DNA from: Enterococcus malodoratus ATCC 43197
Lineage (GTDB): Bacteria > Bacillota > Bacilli > Lactobacillales > Enterococcaceae
Direction: 5' to 3'
DNA: 64,000 nt
Assembly (NCBI RefSeq): GCF_000407185.1
Contig: NZ_KE136481.1
Location: 1,774,136-1,838,135 of the forward strand
In this document: positions 29,212 to 34,710 of the stretch, in pieces
Numbering within the stretch: position 1 is the first letter of the stretch
How the letters are laid out: every line of letters begins with the position of its first letter
Program-made: the position numbers and the translations under genes
The notes under the pieces: model-generated
The model's database searches: none
Seen by the model: the letters and a program-made list of their open reading frames with translations, nothing else
Told to the model about the DNA's origin: nothing

Positions 29212-30714
29212 ATGTTATATGAGGAACTTATGTTTGACGCGTCACTCCTCTTACGTTTTAATATTTTTAAATATTTAAACCAATCGACTAAACAAGTTCT
29301 AGCAATCAACCAATTGTCAGAAGATTTAGATTTAAACTACCAACAAAGTGTCATTGAACTAAATGAAATAGATCAAGAATTGGCAGAAATTCGACCGAAT
29401 CACGAAACACTCATGATGCGTGCCGGCAAGGTGAATCTGGAAAATCTTAACGCTACTGTTGATGAGTATCGTTACCACTTATTGCAGCAGGCGGTACCTT
29501 TCCAATTCATGTTATACTTCTTAAATGAAGAAAATCCAACTATTGAGCATTTTTGTGAAAAATATTTTGTGAGTCGTTCCACCGTTTCACGTAAAATCGA
29601 TAAATTGAAGAGACATTTAAAACGCTTCAATATCCGCTTTACATATACCGAAGCTGGGATGTCTGGGGATGAACGCTTGATCCGATTGGCACTATTTGAT
29701 CTTTTATGGCTGGGAACTCGCGGAATCGAATGCCCTTTGGATGTTGATCAGCATCAATTGAATCAACTTATTGACACGTACAAAGACTATTTCCCTTTGT
29801 CACGGACCTACTTTGGTTCACAAGAGATCAAATTATTTACCTGTATCAATTTAATTCGTGTTAATAACAAAAAGTTTGTCAAATACGATCCGCGTTATAA
29901 TTTCTTGATGAAGGACAATCCGTATTACGATTTTACTTCGTTACGCGAATTAGTGGATGTCCCAATGACAACACGTCAATTAAAAGGTGAATCAAGCTTT
30001 ATCTATTTCTTAGCTCACTATTCACCGTTCTATACCATTCGTGACGATCAAAGTATGAAACAAACAATTCATGACTTTGATGCTCGACCAAACCCAGTCA
30101 ACGATTTTGTCACAGAGTTCAGAAATTTCGCGAAAAAAGCGTTGTTCCCTGATCGCCCGGATATAATGGATGATCCATTAGTCGTTGCCAATATGTTAAA
30201 CATTACCTTTGGCTACTTTATTTTCCGTCAGCCATTTCCAAGCATCATCGAATTGGTGATGGATCCAAATGAAAAACAAACACGCGGCGAATATATTTTA
30301 TTCCAAAACATTCAAAACTTTATGCAAATGGCTAAAGACAATCCGTCATACAGCTTCGTCGGCTCTGTCCACCCAATGATCACACGGGCGTTCAAACGGT
30401 TGCTGCTGCCTTACTTCAACCAGTTCCCATATGCGCATAATTTGAAGGTCGGAATCGCGTTGGAACACAACGCTATCTTTGTCCGTGACTTGTATCGTTT
30501 CTTGGAAGATCTGCGCTTCATTGACGCGGAACCTTACGACATCTCATTGAAGGATGATTATGACTTGATCATCAGTTCTTCTTCATTGTTGAAAAAAGAG
30601 AAACCAAATATTCCTTTGTATCAATTGGACTTTCCATACACGAAAAACGAACTTGTTCCACTGTACTTGGAATTACGTAATATTTACGACAAGAAAAATC
30701 GTGTTTATGAATAA
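29212..30714 (+). CDS. Mga/MafR family global transcriptional regulator
   Basis: A 500-residue DNA-binding regulator. An N-terminal HTH-Mga region is followed by a second winged helix (about 95-150, TIEHFCEKYFVSRSTVSRKI), PRD-like central domains (about 170-390) and a C-terminal EIIB-like fold (about 400-495). This is the architecture of Streptococcus Mga, Bacillus AtxA and Enterococcus MafR, which control virulence or sugar genes in a PTS-sensitive way. AAAGGAGG lies 7 bases before the ATG. It stands alone, followed by a terminator and the small-RNA array. Confidence 0.85.
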   Translation: MLYEELMFDASLLLRFNIFKYLNQSTKQVLAINQLSEDLDLNYQQSVIELNEIDQELAEIRPNHETLMMRAGKVNLENLNATVDEYRYHLLQQAVPFQFMLYFLNEENPTIEHFCEKYFVSRSTVSRKIDKLKRHLKRFNIRFTYTEAGMSGDERLIRLALFDLLWLGTRGIECPLDVDQHQLNQLIDTYKDYFPLSRTYFGSQEIKLFTCINLIRVNNKKFVKYDPRYNFLMKDNPYYDFTSLRELVDVPMTTRQLKGESSFIYFLAHYSPFYTIRDDQSMKQTIHDFDARPNPVNDFVTEFRNFAKKALFPDRPDIMDDPLVVANMLNITFGYFIFRQPFPSIIELVMDPNEKQTRGEYILFQNIQNFMQMAKDNPSYSFVGSVHPMITRAFKRLLLPYFNQFPYAHNLKVGIALEHNAIFVRDLYRFLEDLRFIDAEPYDISLKDDYDLIISSSSLLKKEKPNIPLYQLDFPYTKNELVPLYLELRNIYDKKNRVYE

Positions 30715-30718
30715 AACG

Positions 30719-30750
30719 ATGACCGAAGCGCAATGCTTCGGTCATTTTTT
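30719..30750 (+). terminator. Terminator of the Mga-family gene
   Basis: ATGACCGAAGC-GCAAT-GCTTCGGTCAT followed by T6. Confidence 0.9.
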
Positions 30751-30978
30751 ATTTTTGAACGGTTCCTTATAGAAATCGACAAAGAAAACCCATTTTTAGT
30801 TTTCGAGTATCATATTTGACCTATCTAATAAAGAACGGATGTAATTTTTCAGTTTCTTTCGAACGAAATTAAATATTCTTTTCGTAAATATATGTTAGTG
30901 AGATTTATTTTTTTTAAATTAATGGTTTCTCTAACCTTTCATCACATTTTATTCATAACTCGTTGCTATTATACATAC

Positions 30979-31057
30979 ATACCAACAAACAACCCTAACA
31001 CTTTTTCATTTTTTAACTCCTTTGCTCATCGGCTACCCACCGGTGAGCTCTTTTTTT
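30979..31057 (+). ncRNA. Small RNA copy 1
   Basis: An extended -10 TGCTATTAT (30965-30972 region) predicts a start near 30979. The transcript has an unpaired A/C-rich 5' part (ACCAACAAACAACCCTAACA), a U-rich part, the segment TTAACTCCTTTG, and an intrinsic terminator GCTCATCGG-CTACCCA-CCGGTGAGC followed by T7. No open reading frame is present. Compared with copies 2 and 3 the terminator stem has a G-U pair in place of A-U, so the stem is conserved despite change. Start site is a prediction. Confidence 0.7.
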
Positions 31058-31177
31058 ATAGAAAATAAAAATAATATATTTGTCCAAATAATTAAATCCC
31101 AATTTCTTTACAAATATTTTAATGTTCGAACAATCATCGTTCACACTTTTTTCACAACTACTTGCTATTATATATAT

Positions 31178-31257
31178 ATACCAACAAACAACCCTAACAC
31201 TTTTTCATTTTTTAACTCCTTTGCTCATCGGCCACCCACCGATGAGCTCCTTTTTTT
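31178..31257 (+). ncRNA. Small RNA copy 2
   Basis: Same design as copy 1: extended -10 TGCTATTAT at 31163-31171, identical core, terminator GCTCATCGG-CCACCCA-CCGATGAGC then CC and T7. A perfect palindrome TGTTCGAACA lies at 31123-31132. CAUUUUUUAACUCCUUUG in the RNA is the exact complement of a Shine-Dalgarno (CAAAGGAG), spacer and AUG. Confidence 0.72.
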
Positions 31258-31373
31258 ATAAATAAAATAATTTATATCTCAACTTAATTTAGTTTCAGTT
31301 TCTTTATAGAATTTTTAATTTTCGAACAATCTTCATTCACACTTTTTTCACAACTACTTGCTATTATATAAGC

Positions 31374-31452
31374 ATACCAACAAACAACCCTAACACTTTT
31401 TCATTTTTTAACTCCTTTGCTCATCGGCCACCCACCGATGAGCTCTTTTTTT
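31374..31452 (+). ncRNA. Small RNA copy 3
   Basis: Extended -10 TGCTATTAT at 31359-31367, identical core and terminator GCTCATCGG-CCACCCA-CCGATGAGC followed by TC and T7. TTCGAACA lies at 31321-31328, at the same distance from the promoter as in copy 2. Confidence 0.72.
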
Positions 31453-31509
31453 GGAAAAATTTATCTGTTCGAACTTCGGCATAGCAGATACTGCAATCCT
31501 CTTAGCTAT

Positions 31510-31547
31510 AAAAAGGAACGCACCGATTTTCCGATGCGTTCCTTTTT
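31510..31547. terminator. Terminator of the ABC exporter operon
   Basis: AAAAAGGAACGCACCGA and TCGGTGCGTTCC-like arms (one wobble) with A and T runs on both sides, directly after the ATPase stop codon on the minus strand. Confidence 0.82.
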
Positions 31548-31559
31548 CTCATCTATCAA

Positions 31560-32279
31560 TTAGACTTCCAGCATTTTTTCTGCGATTTGGACCTCAGAAC
31601 CAATGACATTTACTAAACGGTCATAGATTTGTCCATCCTTTAAGAAGATGACCTCTTTGGCGGCCTGGGCCACTTTGCTGTCATGGGTAATCATTACGAT
31701 GGTAATTCCCAGCTCTTGATTGATCCGCTGGAAAATTTTAATCACTTCCGCACCTGCGTTGCTATCTAAATTCCCAGTTGGTTCATCGGCTAAAATAATC
31801 TCTGGCGCATTTATCAATGCACGGCAAATCGCGGCACGTTGCTTTTCACCTACAGATAATTCATGAGGCAGCTTGTCCAAAAGATGTTCAATCCGCAGCA
31901 CTTGAAAAAATGGCTTCATCTTTTCCTCAGCCTCGACGGGATCCTGCTTGTCTAAAATTGCCGGCAAAAGAATATTCTCCCCCACGGTAATACTCTCCAT
32001 CAAATTAAAATCCTGAAAAACAAATCCGATTTTTCGTCTTCGAATATCCGAGATTTCATCTGGAAAAAGCTCGTAGGTCAGTTTATCTTCGAAAAAAATC
32101 TCTCCCGCAGTTGGCGGATGCATCAGTCCCAGAATCTTCAGCAACGTCGTTTTGCCGCAACCAGAGCGCCCCATGATACAAGTGAAATCTCCTGGAGCAA
32201 TCGCAATATCAATTCCTTTTAAGACTTCTTGCTGCGCATATTTTTTTGTAATTGCCGTGGCTTTGATGACTGGCTCCAT
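31560..32279 (-). CDS. ABC exporter ATPase, LolD/MacB type
   Basis: A 239-residue ATPase. Walker A GRSGCGKTT, Q-loop VFQDFNLME, signature LSVGEKQR (a variant of LSGGQ), Walker B IILADEPTGNLD and the H-loop MITHDS are present. The family works with FtsX-like permeases to export peptides or lipids, or to sense and resist antimicrobial peptides. It follows the permease gene by 4 bases, so the two form one transporter. No regulator or sensor kinase is adjacent, so substrate is unknown. Confidence 0.9.
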   Translation of the reverse strand: MEPVIKATAITKKYAQQEVLKGIDIAIAPGDFTCIMGRSGCGKTTLLKILGLMHPPTAGEIFFEDKLTYELFPDEISDIRRRKIGFVFQDFNLMESITVGENILLPAILDKQDPVEAEEKMKPFFQVLRIEHLLDKLPHELSVGEKQRAAICRALINAPEIILADEPTGNLDSNAGAEVIKIFQRINQELGITIVMITHDSKVAQAAKEVIFLKDGQIYDRLVNVIGSEVQIAEKMLEV

Positions 32280-32283
32280 TTGT

Positions 32284-34710
32284 TTACCTCCATTTTTCGA
32301 TTCTACGATATATCAAGCTGGCAATGATTCCCCAACCTAATAAGTACACACTGTAATCCAACAAGAAGACGCGTCCAAATTGCAGCCATTCCTGTATTGA
32401 GAAAAAGCGCAGCGCACCCATGATTCCAATAAACCCGCAGCTTAGTATCAAACCTGCGACGATTGGCAAAACGGTAAAGAATCCGACTTGTTGTTTCAGC
32501 ACACCGCGCTGTTCTTTTTGCCGCATGCCTAATTGATCCAGTAGTTTTCGGCGTGCAATCAAACTGGTCTGTTCGCTCTCAAACTTCGCTACTAATAAGC
32601 CGACACTCATAAAAATACAGATAATTAAGGTGAATATTAGCAGCAGGACCTGCAGATGATTTTCGGTGATGACATTATTTTTACGCTGCGTCTTTTCATA
32701 CACTGGTTCAATCGTCGAATCCCATCGTTTATCCGCCGCATATTTTTGCTTCAAAAAATTCAGTGAAGGGACGATTTTTTTATCGCTGTTTATCAAAAAC
32801 AATTGATTGGGATGTTCTTTTTTCGTCTGCTCCGCAAATTCCTGATCCGTAAAGACCAAAATATTTTCTTGCAGCCCCCGCTGAAACATCCCGGTCAATA
32901 TCAAGCGTTCTTGACTCTTAATATGACGCATTGGATAGATCATATCGACATTCGCCGTATTGTAGCTCTCTAATGGTGTCCCGATTCTTAATCGCGGTCG
33001 TGAACTTTGCGGGTCCCAATCGATCGGTTGTCCCCGGATACTGATTGCCTGTTGATAGACCACATGCCATTGTCCCTTTTTCAAATTCAGTGGATGAGGC
33101 TCTAGTTTATTCGCCTGGCGTAATTGTTGATACGTCGTTTCAGAAATCCCGATATGCTGTCCTTGAATAAACATGACTGGTCGAGCGGTTCCGTAAACTT
33201 CCCATTCAGGATCACCATCGACTGACGTTACAGGGACGAATGGGTATTTTTTCCACGAAGCCTTTTCCTTATTCAAAATCGTTTCAGTTTGAGAAACTTC
33301 TGGCTGCTTCACTTTCGCAACGACTCCATAAGGAAATTGATCATCGACTGAAGTCAGTTGAAAAGTCACGAATCGCGGTAAAAAGAAGCCCACTACTAAA
33401 ACCTGCAAAAGTGTTGCTAATAACAATACGTTAATACTTTTATGGAAACGATAGAATAAGTCATTGCGAGAAAGTAAGATGCCAAGCTTTCCCCGGTTGC
33501 GCTTCACATAAAGACCACCGCCTCCTAAAAACAAGCCCCACAAAGCAGCGACTAATACCCCAACTACTAATAATGTCTCCGCTGATTTCCGGCGATAGAA
33601 CCACCAAAAAGTGATTGCTAGTGCAAGTCCCCCTACTAATAAGAAGATGGGCGTCCAACGCTGTCTTGGCCGATCCGCCTTGGCTTGCTTCCGCGGCTGG
33701 AATTGGATCAAACGCAAGATTTTTTCTTGATGAAAGGCCATCGCAAGAATGACCAGCCCTGCGTACAACAACAATGCCCAACTAAAACTGGATGGTTCTC
33801 TGACGATTATTAGACCCGCTAGTCCTCCAAGCAGAATCCCCGCTAACGCGCAAAAACTAAATTCCTCCAACAACATCGTTAGAAACGTATTTTTTCGAAT
33901 ACCTAATTGAATAAACAGCTCCATATGTTTCGCTTTAAAATCGACATATAGACCATCCATAAATGATAGAAATAATAATAGCAGTAGCAAAAGAACGCCA
34001 CCTGATTCGATAAAAATCCGCAAAAGTCCGGTCTTGTCAAAAATCGCATCCTGCGTATGCGTCCCGCTAAACGTATGATAGGTAAAAATCAGAATACTTA
34101 AAACGAAGAATGCCAGTGCATTAGCAAAAATCAATAAAAAATAATTTTTCCGATAGAAACGAAAGTTTTTACGAATCACCTGGTGAAACGCAGGTGGGTA
34201 TTTCCCTGGAAAGGCCAGCCGTCTTTTCCGATCTTCATTATAAGTTTTTTCAATTTTTTGCGACTCCGCATATTTTCGATCACGCTCAATTTTGTCTTCC
34301 AAATATCGATTCAACAGAAATTCCAGAGCACCTATGATAAGAATTAAAACCAACCACATACTGCTGGAATAAAACTGAATAAAAATAAAGTAAAAAAACA
34401 TCGTGAAGTACAGCCATGCTGACTTAGCCGATTGCAGAAAACTCACCTGTCGATGCCGGGTTATCAGCAGTGCATCGAGCACATAGATCAGTACTAACAA
34501 CAGAAATATTCCCGTTCCGACTAAAACACCGATCCCAGAAGAAAATTCTGTACGCCAAAAATGCAGGAAATCTCCACTGATCAGGCTGCGAACCCAGACT
34601 TCAATCAAACTGAAGCGTCGATTTTCCCCACCAACTATTTTTAAAAATAAAGCAATTAATAAAATTCCATAGCCGGCTACCATGGAAATTCGATCCATTC
34701 GTTTCTGCAT
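32284..34710 (-). CDS. ABC exporter permease with FtsX-like domains
   Basis: An 808-residue membrane protein. Hydrophobic segments cluster at about 10-130, 185-320, 350-445 and 685-800; a large hydrophilic region at about 450-670 is probably extracellular. The pattern suggests an FtsX/MacB-like permease enlarged by an extra N-terminal membrane block. GGGGAGGG precedes the ATG. It is the upstream gene of a two-gene operon with the ATPase. I do not recognise a specific named family; bacteriocin or antimicrobial peptide export is possible. Confidence 0.75.
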   Translation of the reverse strand: MQKRMDRISMVAGYGILLIALFLKIVGGENRRFSLIEVWVRSLISGDFLHFWRTEFSSGIGVLVGTGIFLLLVLIYVLDALLITRHRQVSFLQSAKSAWLYFTMFFYFIFIQFYSSSMWLVLILIIGALEFLLNRYLEDKIERDRKYAESQKIEKTYNEDRKRRLAFPGKYPPAFHQVIRKNFRFYRKNYFLLIFANALAFFVLSILIFTYHTFSGTHTQDAIFDKTGLLRIFIESGGVLLLLLLLFLSFMDGLYVDFKAKHMELFIQLGIRKNTFLTMLLEEFSFCALAGILLGGLAGLIIVREPSSFSWALLLYAGLVILAMAFHQEKILRLIQFQPRKQAKADRPRQRWTPIFLLVGGLALAITFWWFYRRKSAETLLVVGVLVAALWGLFLGGGGLYVKRNRGKLGILLSRNDLFYRFHKSINVLLLATLLQVLVVGFFLPRFVTFQLTSVDDQFPYGVVAKVKQPEVSQTETILNKEKASWKKYPFVPVTSVDGDPEWEVYGTARPVMFIQGQHIGISETTYQQLRQANKLEPHPLNLKKGQWHVVYQQAISIRGQPIDWDPQSSRPRLRIGTPLESYNTANVDMIYPMRHIKSQERLILTGMFQRGLQENILVFTDQEFAEQTKKEHPNQLFLINSDKKIVPSLNFLKQKYAADKRWDSTIEPVYEKTQRKNNVITENHLQVLLLIFTLIICIFMSVGLLVAKFESEQTSLIARRKLLDQLGMRQKEQRGVLKQQVGFFTVLPIVAGLILSCGFIGIMGALRFFSIQEWLQFGRVFLLDYSVYLLGWGIIASLIYRRIEKWR

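Follow-up and report, generated by a model that had tools for sequence, protein, structure and literature searches.

Three tandem repeats in the 64,000-nucleotide stretch of Enterococcus malodoratus ATCC 43197 DNA analysed here (the window) are, as judged from their sequence, real and conserved RNA genes, a conclusion that follows from compensatory changes in eight of the nine base pairs of their terminator stems. On the reading that we favour, at a probability of roughly two in three, they would encode a multicopy small RNA (sRNA) under two-component control that blocks translation starts, mainly those of exported proteins beginning with Met-Lys-Lys, under envelope or secretion stress. Two features, absent from the first-pass annotation of this DNA and newly recognised here, are a direct repeat in the promoters and a stretch of the RNA complementary to a translation start site.

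The three units lie in tandem at 30941-31452, with predicted transcripts of 79-80 nt and matching promoters and terminators; three direct repeats span 30856-31446, with start-to-start distances of 199 and 196 nt. They are the same from ATACCAAC through GCTCATCGGC, and TTGCTATTAT, with the extended -10 that the first-pass annotation had pointed out, is present in every one of them. Downstream of GCTCATCGGC, the units differ in one loop base, in one stem position and in the bases between the stem and the T run. The stem difference is a change from U-A to U-G in copy 1, which preserves the stem as the annotation had observed. Each unit has its own intrinsic terminator with a 9-bp stem and a T7 run, and the five terminator-like sites found in 30700-31600, three of them those of the sRNAs, compare with 0.3 in shuffled sequence. 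The locus is made up as follows.

29212..30714, plus strand: gene for a regulator with an Mga-type helix-turn-helix (HTH; PF05043, E 3e-16), upstream of the sRNAs
30941..30957, plus strand: promoter direct repeat of copy 1 (ATCACA-N5-TTCATA; one mismatch to TTCAYA-N5-TTCAYA)
30964..30972, plus strand: extended -10 of copy 1 (TGCTATTAT)
30979..31057, plus strand: predicted sRNA copy 1 (start placed by its spacing from the -10, end by the T run)
31001..31023, plus strand: in copy 1, stretch complementary to a translation start, CUUUUUCAUUUUUUAACUCCUUU (anti-AAAAAG, anti-AUG, linker, anti-SD), unpaired in the fold
31024..31048, plus strand: terminator stem-loop of copy 1
31140..31156, plus strand: promoter direct repeat of copy 2 (TTCACA-N5-TTCACA)
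31163..31171, plus strand: extended -10 of copy 2
31178..31257, plus strand: predicted sRNA copy 2
31200-31222, plus strand: the same complement stretch in copy 2
31223-31247, plus strand: terminator stem-loop of copy 2
31336..31352, plus strand: promoter direct repeat of copy 3 (TTCACA-N5-TTCACA)
31359..31367, plus strand: extended -10 of copy 3
31374..31452, plus strand: predicted sRNA copy 3
31396-31418, plus strand: the same complement stretch in copy 3
31419-31443, plus strand: terminator stem-loop of copy 3

This layout agrees with the first-pass description of three tandem small-RNA genes with their own terminators and an identical core devoid of any open reading frame (ORF), situated after an Mga-family regulator. 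The core contains no ATG, GTG or TTG up to CTCC. ORFs that cross the units exist, for example 31022-31261 (TTG) and 30892-31068 (ATG); we nevertheless take the units to be non-coding, because the core lacks a start codon and the terminator varies by compensation. The match of the upstream Mga-HTH protein to NCBIfam AcpB/EbpR/MafR is below the cut-off. Convergent with the sRNAs, a gene on the minus strand (32284-34710) that adjoins an ABC ATPase gene encodes an 808-aa protein without a Pfam match. Further away in the window, 15948-16261 matches rliD, a Listeria sRNA family (RF01494, 58.9 bits).

In the predicted fold, the first 45 nt are unpaired and the terminator hairpin is the only structure, at -14.9 to -15.5 kcal/mol, which none of 200 shuffles equalled. 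For covariation we used 27 copies, namely the three of the window and 24 others, taken from 73 stem classes, in which a script had found a 9-bp stem and a 7-nt loop. All 243 stem cells are paired, a figure biased by the selection of 24 of the 27 copies for a 9-bp stem, and eight of the nine pairs have changed on both sides. Cells changed on both sides number 55 against 18 in shuffles (as high in 0 of 500), and the stem covariation of 0.700 stands against 0.360 when shuffled and at most 0.195 when slid. Two measures set the stem apart less clearly: 18 of 500 shuffles had as many doubly changed pairs, and 168 of 500 as many further pair types. By eye, in a 74-copy view (a 77-row alignment minus three rows), UACCAACAAACAACCCUAACACUUUUUCAUUUUUUAACUCC is nearly invariant while the terminator stem varies freely. 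The arm itself varies in an insert ahead of the second AACAC and in the linker from CAU to CUCC. In five distant loci (L215, L222, L224, L226 and L230), a small inverted repeat is inserted in the 5' arm with the flanking parts kept, again by eye.

Upstream of each unit, the order of elements is TTCAYA-N5-TTCAYA, nine bases, TATTAT with TG upstream, and the predicted transcript start. The direct repeat, with a period of 11 nt, occupies the position of the -35 box and is exact in copies 2 and 3; these two exact matches in the window compare with 0.07 expected. A scan for the sigma-70 consensus listed none of the three sRNA promoters. Upstream of 114 copies located by their core alone (two near locus ends left out, duplicate stretches collapsed), TTCAYA-N5-TTCAYA-N9-TANNNT is found with at most two mismatches in 94 cases and at most three in 111, against 3 of 114 shuffled upstream regions within three mismatches. 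This core-only test is the fair one, since a count of 154 of 156 obtained with the sRNA profile is biased by the promoter columns that the profile had taken in.

The same element, with TATNNT as its -10, occurs at six places in the host genome at zero or one mismatch, three of them the sRNAs, and at 22 places in a search at two mismatches, against 14 in a backward control. The fourth place is the promoter of an OmpR/PhoB-type response-regulator gene (C3:319624-320295). The fifth (C3:1017476, L189) lies 53 nt before a gene for a 218-aa permease-like membrane protein, which comes after an LtaS-like gene, and the sixth (C1:675962) is within an ORF. Across 16 genomes of other genera, the strict element occurs at 24 places, against 5 in the backward control, and by eye these precede sRNAs (8), a permease-like gene (9; L210, L216-L219, L221, L223, L225 and L229), HtrA-type proteases (2), a PcsB-like hydrolase (1), polA (2) and others (2). 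The HtrA-type proteases, from two other genera, combine Trypsin_2 with PDZ. An LtaS-like gene is directly upstream in seven of the eight permease loci examined by eye, the one tested belonging to the sulfatase family, and Pfam gave no model for the tested permease-like protein or its small partner. These promoter searches show the element to be common to the permease gene and the sRNAs in the host genome and in several genera. At polA, the element lies about 210 nt upstream in two genomes of one genus (L227 and L228, in G076 and G083), with polA confirmed by Pfam in L227.

The other owners of the element, namely the permease-like gene beside a probable LtaS, htrA, a pcsB-like gene and the response-regulator gene, suggest a link to stress of the cell envelope or of secretion, and our best guess from these sequences is that an OmpR-family regulator of envelope or secretion stress would read the repeat. 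The response regulator at C3:319624, whose gene is followed by a kinase gene and has a divergent ABC transporter gene with a 2-mismatch version of the element, is a candidate. A repeat of this type is present at all 19 host-genus loci of this regulator, 54-66 nt before the start codon where measured. When 250 nt upstream of 30 of the 43 regulator genes of the host genome were checked on the sense strand (two of the 30 read from an internal start), this gene alone matched at zero mismatches, and none of the rest came below two mismatches to the repeat. However, at E 1e-60 this regulator turned up in only 51 of the 105 family genomes. It may thus belong to the regulated genes and not direct the regulon, or else some other factor would have to read the repeat elsewhere. 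None of the 24 strict places in the 16 other genomes was seen to lie before a response-regulator gene.

Other candidate regulators were considered. The host genome has two genes that, named by eye, we take to be CiaR-like (L290) and CovR/LisR-like (L277); the former has no NCBIfam equivalog, with no curated name found in PDB or NCBIfam, and the repeat is absent within 250 nt upstream of the latter (best 4 mismatches). WalR boxes would not account for the promoter repeat, as the WalR consensus does not permit the G of TGTGAA. For PhoP (phosphate) boxes, the exact repeat was located at five host-genome places, none of which was recognised as a pst gene. CroR is not favoured either, its reported motif TTTATTAA differing from the repeat (PMC9426447).

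The 3' half of the arm is complementary to a translation start in its entirety, its reverse complement CAAAGGAGTTAAAAAATGAAAAAGTG reading AAAGGAG-uuaaaaa-AUG-AAA-AAG. Among 187 unique copies, the linker from CAU to CUCC is 4, 5, 6, 7 and 8 nt long in 6, 17, 80, 81 and 3 copies, respectively, hence 6 or 7 nt in 161 of them, with 4 of 191 copies outside the rule. The median distance from Shine-Dalgarno (SD) to start has been reported as 6-7 nt (PMC7724050). Apart from the sRNAs, 20 places in the 20 genus genomes come within three mismatches of the 23-nt complement, against 8 in the backward control. At each of the 17 that were read, the expected codon (16 ATG, 1 TTG) opens an ORF of 72 aa or more, a result partly built in, as a pattern with an SD and an ATG tends toward gene starts anyway; in two of the remaining three, the matching stretch lacks a start codon. 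Of 16 of the genes read, 9 encode, by eye, exported or anchored proteins (lipoproteins, signal-peptide proteins); cytosolic enzymes, a PTS protein and a regulator are among the rest.

In the host genome itself there is only one near-perfect complement, the start of a gene for a TauE-family permease (PF01925; L051). Four of 30 weaker matches were read: by eye, L005 and L008 start lipoproteins, L007 has no ORF by the rule used, and in L006 no ORF starts at the expected codon. That the single near-perfect complement is a gene start would also suit a narrower scheme, in which a few specific mRNAs (such as those of the TauE-like permease or the L005 lipoprotein) are targeted and the likeness to a start site is the by-product of an old target. 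We think this quite unlikely, given that near-complements across the genus lie at the starts of many different genes.

Pairing with start sites was also assessed by predicted duplex energies, which ignore mRNA structure. Starts were taken from the window and the loci of a core-pattern scan by a simple ORF and SD rule rather than a gene caller, and for 400 sampled of these 457, pairing with the core averages -12.29 kcal/mol, against -9.95 ± 0.75 kcal/mol for shuffled cores. The core outpairs all 30 full shuffles and also all 30 in which the nine 3' bases were left in place. The 75 exported-type starts pair better by 2.15 kcal/mol than 150 sampled from the 382 others, an advantage reached by none of 40 shuffles of either sort. 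Starts of the Met-Lys-Lys (MKK) type make up 24 of the 75 exported-type starts and 21 of the 382 others; they account for at least part of the exported-gene pairing preference and may account for the whole of it. Nine lipoprotein genes picked by rule did not pair significantly differently from the rest (p 0.23).

Taken together in the reading that we favour, each unit would yield an sRNA of about 79 nt in which a 5' arm of some 45 nt, free of structure, precedes a terminator hairpin. Its transcription would be driven by an OmpR/PhoB-type response regulator bound at TTCAYA-N5-TTCAYA, which would replace the -35 box. In the 3' half of the arm, CUUUUUCAU would pair with AUG-AAA-AAG and ACUCCUUU with AAAGGAG at their natural spacing, covering the SD and the start codon together and thereby blocking 30S binding. 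The main targets would be mRNAs of proteins that begin with Met-Lys-Lys and are often exported, and when the envelope is overloaded, several copies could jointly reduce the flow of exported proteins. A more far-reaching version, which we offer tentatively and consider somewhat doubtful, is that the RNA serves as a general-purpose antisense start site: the arm would be fitted to the enterococcal start consensus and not to a single gene, linkers of 4 to 8 nt would make the SD spacing of an mRNA decide which copies act on it, and a response regulator common with htrA and the permease beside LtaS would throttle translation of the exported-protein class. If true, this would be the sRNA counterpart of a secretion-stress brake.

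The 5' part of the arm, ACCAACAAACAACCC, is conserved as strongly as the remainder, and the start-site model assigns no role to this A/C-rich half. Together with the near invariance of the whole arm, which goes beyond the needs of an mRNA-pairing seed, and with the apparent lack of Hfq, CsrA and ProQ in enterococci (PMC7724050), this could speak for a sponge, in which the copies titrate an RNA-binding protein or the ACUCCUUU stretch, which resembles the 16S tail, binds the ribosome or another partner. We regard a sponge as unlikely, since in order and spacing the 3' half agrees with a start site and its fit to exported-type starts exceeds all 40 shuffles.

The sRNA is found throughout the host's family. 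A blastn search with copy 2 gave matches in all 20 genomes of the genus, at 1 to 10 per genome (E 0.01; some weak matches are mRNA starts rather than sRNA copies), and in 104 of 105 genomes and all 17 genera of the family, the single miss being a genome that is 76% complete. The host genome has three strong copies in tandem, and in other genomes copies are partly scattered; the family is thus both tandem and dispersed, and the term multicopy used in the first-pass annotation, which had proposed the blastn survey, holds. In an order-level sample, 107 of 395 genomes match: 74 of the host family, 26 of a second family and 7 scattered genomes with single weak matches (E 6e-6 to 1e-3), which we take as chance or gene starts. 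The second family (f8) may be the Vagococcus family, as Vagococcus fluvialis plasmids carry a copy. The core pattern, searched over 84,980 species, gave 97 stretches, the best 80 of which belong to Enterococcus, Tetragenococcus (some Candidatus) and one 'Lactobacillales bacterium' bin. A copy also stands in two phage records (L206 and L207; OR846601 and PQ520085), which are marked unverified. The stretch looks like E. faecalis chromosome, and housekeeping genes stand beside the copy by eye; we take these copies as host DNA and do not count them as phage carriage.

A copy is present on three V. fluvialis plasmid records. On small plasmids of this species (L208, L209), an sRNA-like copy sits beside HTH-regulator and replication genes and is possibly a plasmid-borne mimic of the host RNA. 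These records would fit a repeat that belongs to a mobile or coding element, which the first-pass annotation had named as an outcome that would overturn its proposal. We do not favour this explanation and give it hardly any weight: the core has no start codon, the stem changes are compensatory, and the host genus retains the site after the Mga-type gene, while in loci of three other genera (L043, L038, L037) Mga-HTH relatives of 44-47% protein identity adjoin sRNA copies. On the sequences examined, the outcome named by the annotation is thus not borne out, although the plasmid copies weigh on its side.

A search of Rfam with Infernal, also proposed at the outset, gave no match to the window copies at the gathering score. 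The closest family is Ref84 (RF02846), which aligns to them over all 87 model positions at 32.9, 31.8 and 29.1 bits, below the gathering score of 52 bits (cmscan). The first-pass annotation's "apparently undescribed" was thus overstated: no Rfam family matches at gathering, but Ref84 is a sequence relative. Ref84 and the window copies come from the same bacterial family and both have UACCAAC, ACAACC, ACUCCUUU and a short terminator. The Ref84 consensus, however, has an extra hairpin, UUACUC..GAGUAA, between the anti-AUG and anti-SD parts, the columns of which are mostly deleted in all three window copies, where the arm is unpaired.

Full-length alignment and shared motifs might suggest that the window copies are ordinary extra Ref84 members with no separate identity, which we judge improbable in view of the gap of 29-33 bits versus 52, the hairpin, and the existence of a Ref84 gene proper elsewhere in the host genome (C3:544717, 52.1 bits), which lacks the promoter repeat by eye. 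Ref84 occurs in 84 of the 105 family genomes, above the cut-off in 70 and with one match in 60 of the 84; none of the 15 best-scoring Ref84 promoters is within three mismatches of the repeat, and none of 17 loci with window-type copies reaches the Ref84 gathering score. We therefore read the window copies, on sequence grounds, as a probable paralogous multicopy branch, related to but distinct from Ref84.

Two conserved pairs of E. faecalis and E. faecium sRNAs of unknown function, sRNA_109/093 and sRNA_112/005, have been reported (Michaux et al. 2020, PMC7724050). The first is similar to Ref84; the second has a conserved first 50 nt, with predicted targets of the lipoprotein and ABC-transporter types. 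As a guess, from comparison by description only, sRNA_112/005 may belong to the window-type branch; the available text of that study does not call this pair multicopy, whereas the window copies are. Titles and abstract openings of the open-licence literature yielded no multicopy enterococcal sRNA family with this promoter. RsaOG matched only weakly (16.7 bits) and was set aside, as was Ern0160 of E. faecium, which differs in length and place (PMC12870237).

In their near-identical copies and unpaired C/U-rich anti-SD stretch, the window copies show the features of multicopy anti-SD sRNAs. The csRNAs are multicopy and have a direct repeat upstream, the CiaR repeat TTTAAG-N5-TTTAAG, which is not what stands upstream of the window copies, where the repeat is TTCAYA-N5-TTCAYA. 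LhrC, for which Rfam presumably contains a model, is missing from the six matches that Rfam gave for the window at E up to 10; the csRNAs are absent from these matches as well, the presence of a csRNA model in Rfam being uncertain. In streptococci, the csRNAs are controlled by the response regulator of CiaRH, with htrA in the same regulon (PMC12826053). LhrC1-5, Rli22 and Rli33-1 of Listeria monocytogenes are multicopy like the window sRNAs; LhrC1-5 and Rli22 are positively regulated by LisRK, a system responsive to envelope stress, and CU-rich single strands of the LhrC family bind mRNAs, among them lapB and, at the Shine-Dalgarno, lmo0484 (PMC4132741, PMC5880928). Unlike LhrC, the arm of the window sRNAs would cover both the SD and the AUG. 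Control of htrA and multicopy sRNAs by one system is known from CiaRH in pneumococci, with a parallel in LisRK of Listeria (PMC12826053, PMC4132741).

A comparable link runs to CssR of Bacillus subtilis, the box of which, TTTTCACA, serves htrA and htrB (PMC6749698). This box is found in copies 2 and 3, and htrA-type genes of two other genera have the sRNA promoter element upstream, but the available text of that source links no sRNA of this kind to CssR, and any CssR orthologue here is putative. By analogy, then, the mode of the window sRNAs resembles that of LhrC and the csRNAs, and the likeness drawn by the first-pass annotation proves to be one of kind; it supports neither membership in either family nor homology.

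To our knowledge, few trans-acting sRNAs of enterococci have an understood job. A multicopy sRNA that is family-wide would give these bacteria a counterpart of LhrC and the csRNAs, against whose mode the full mimicry of a start site with a variable linker is an unusual feature. The findings also suggest that Ref84 in Rfam is only one branch of a larger set. With an arm that can be read and a promoter of the two-component type, the regulator, the stress and the choice of targets by linker length would all be directly testable.
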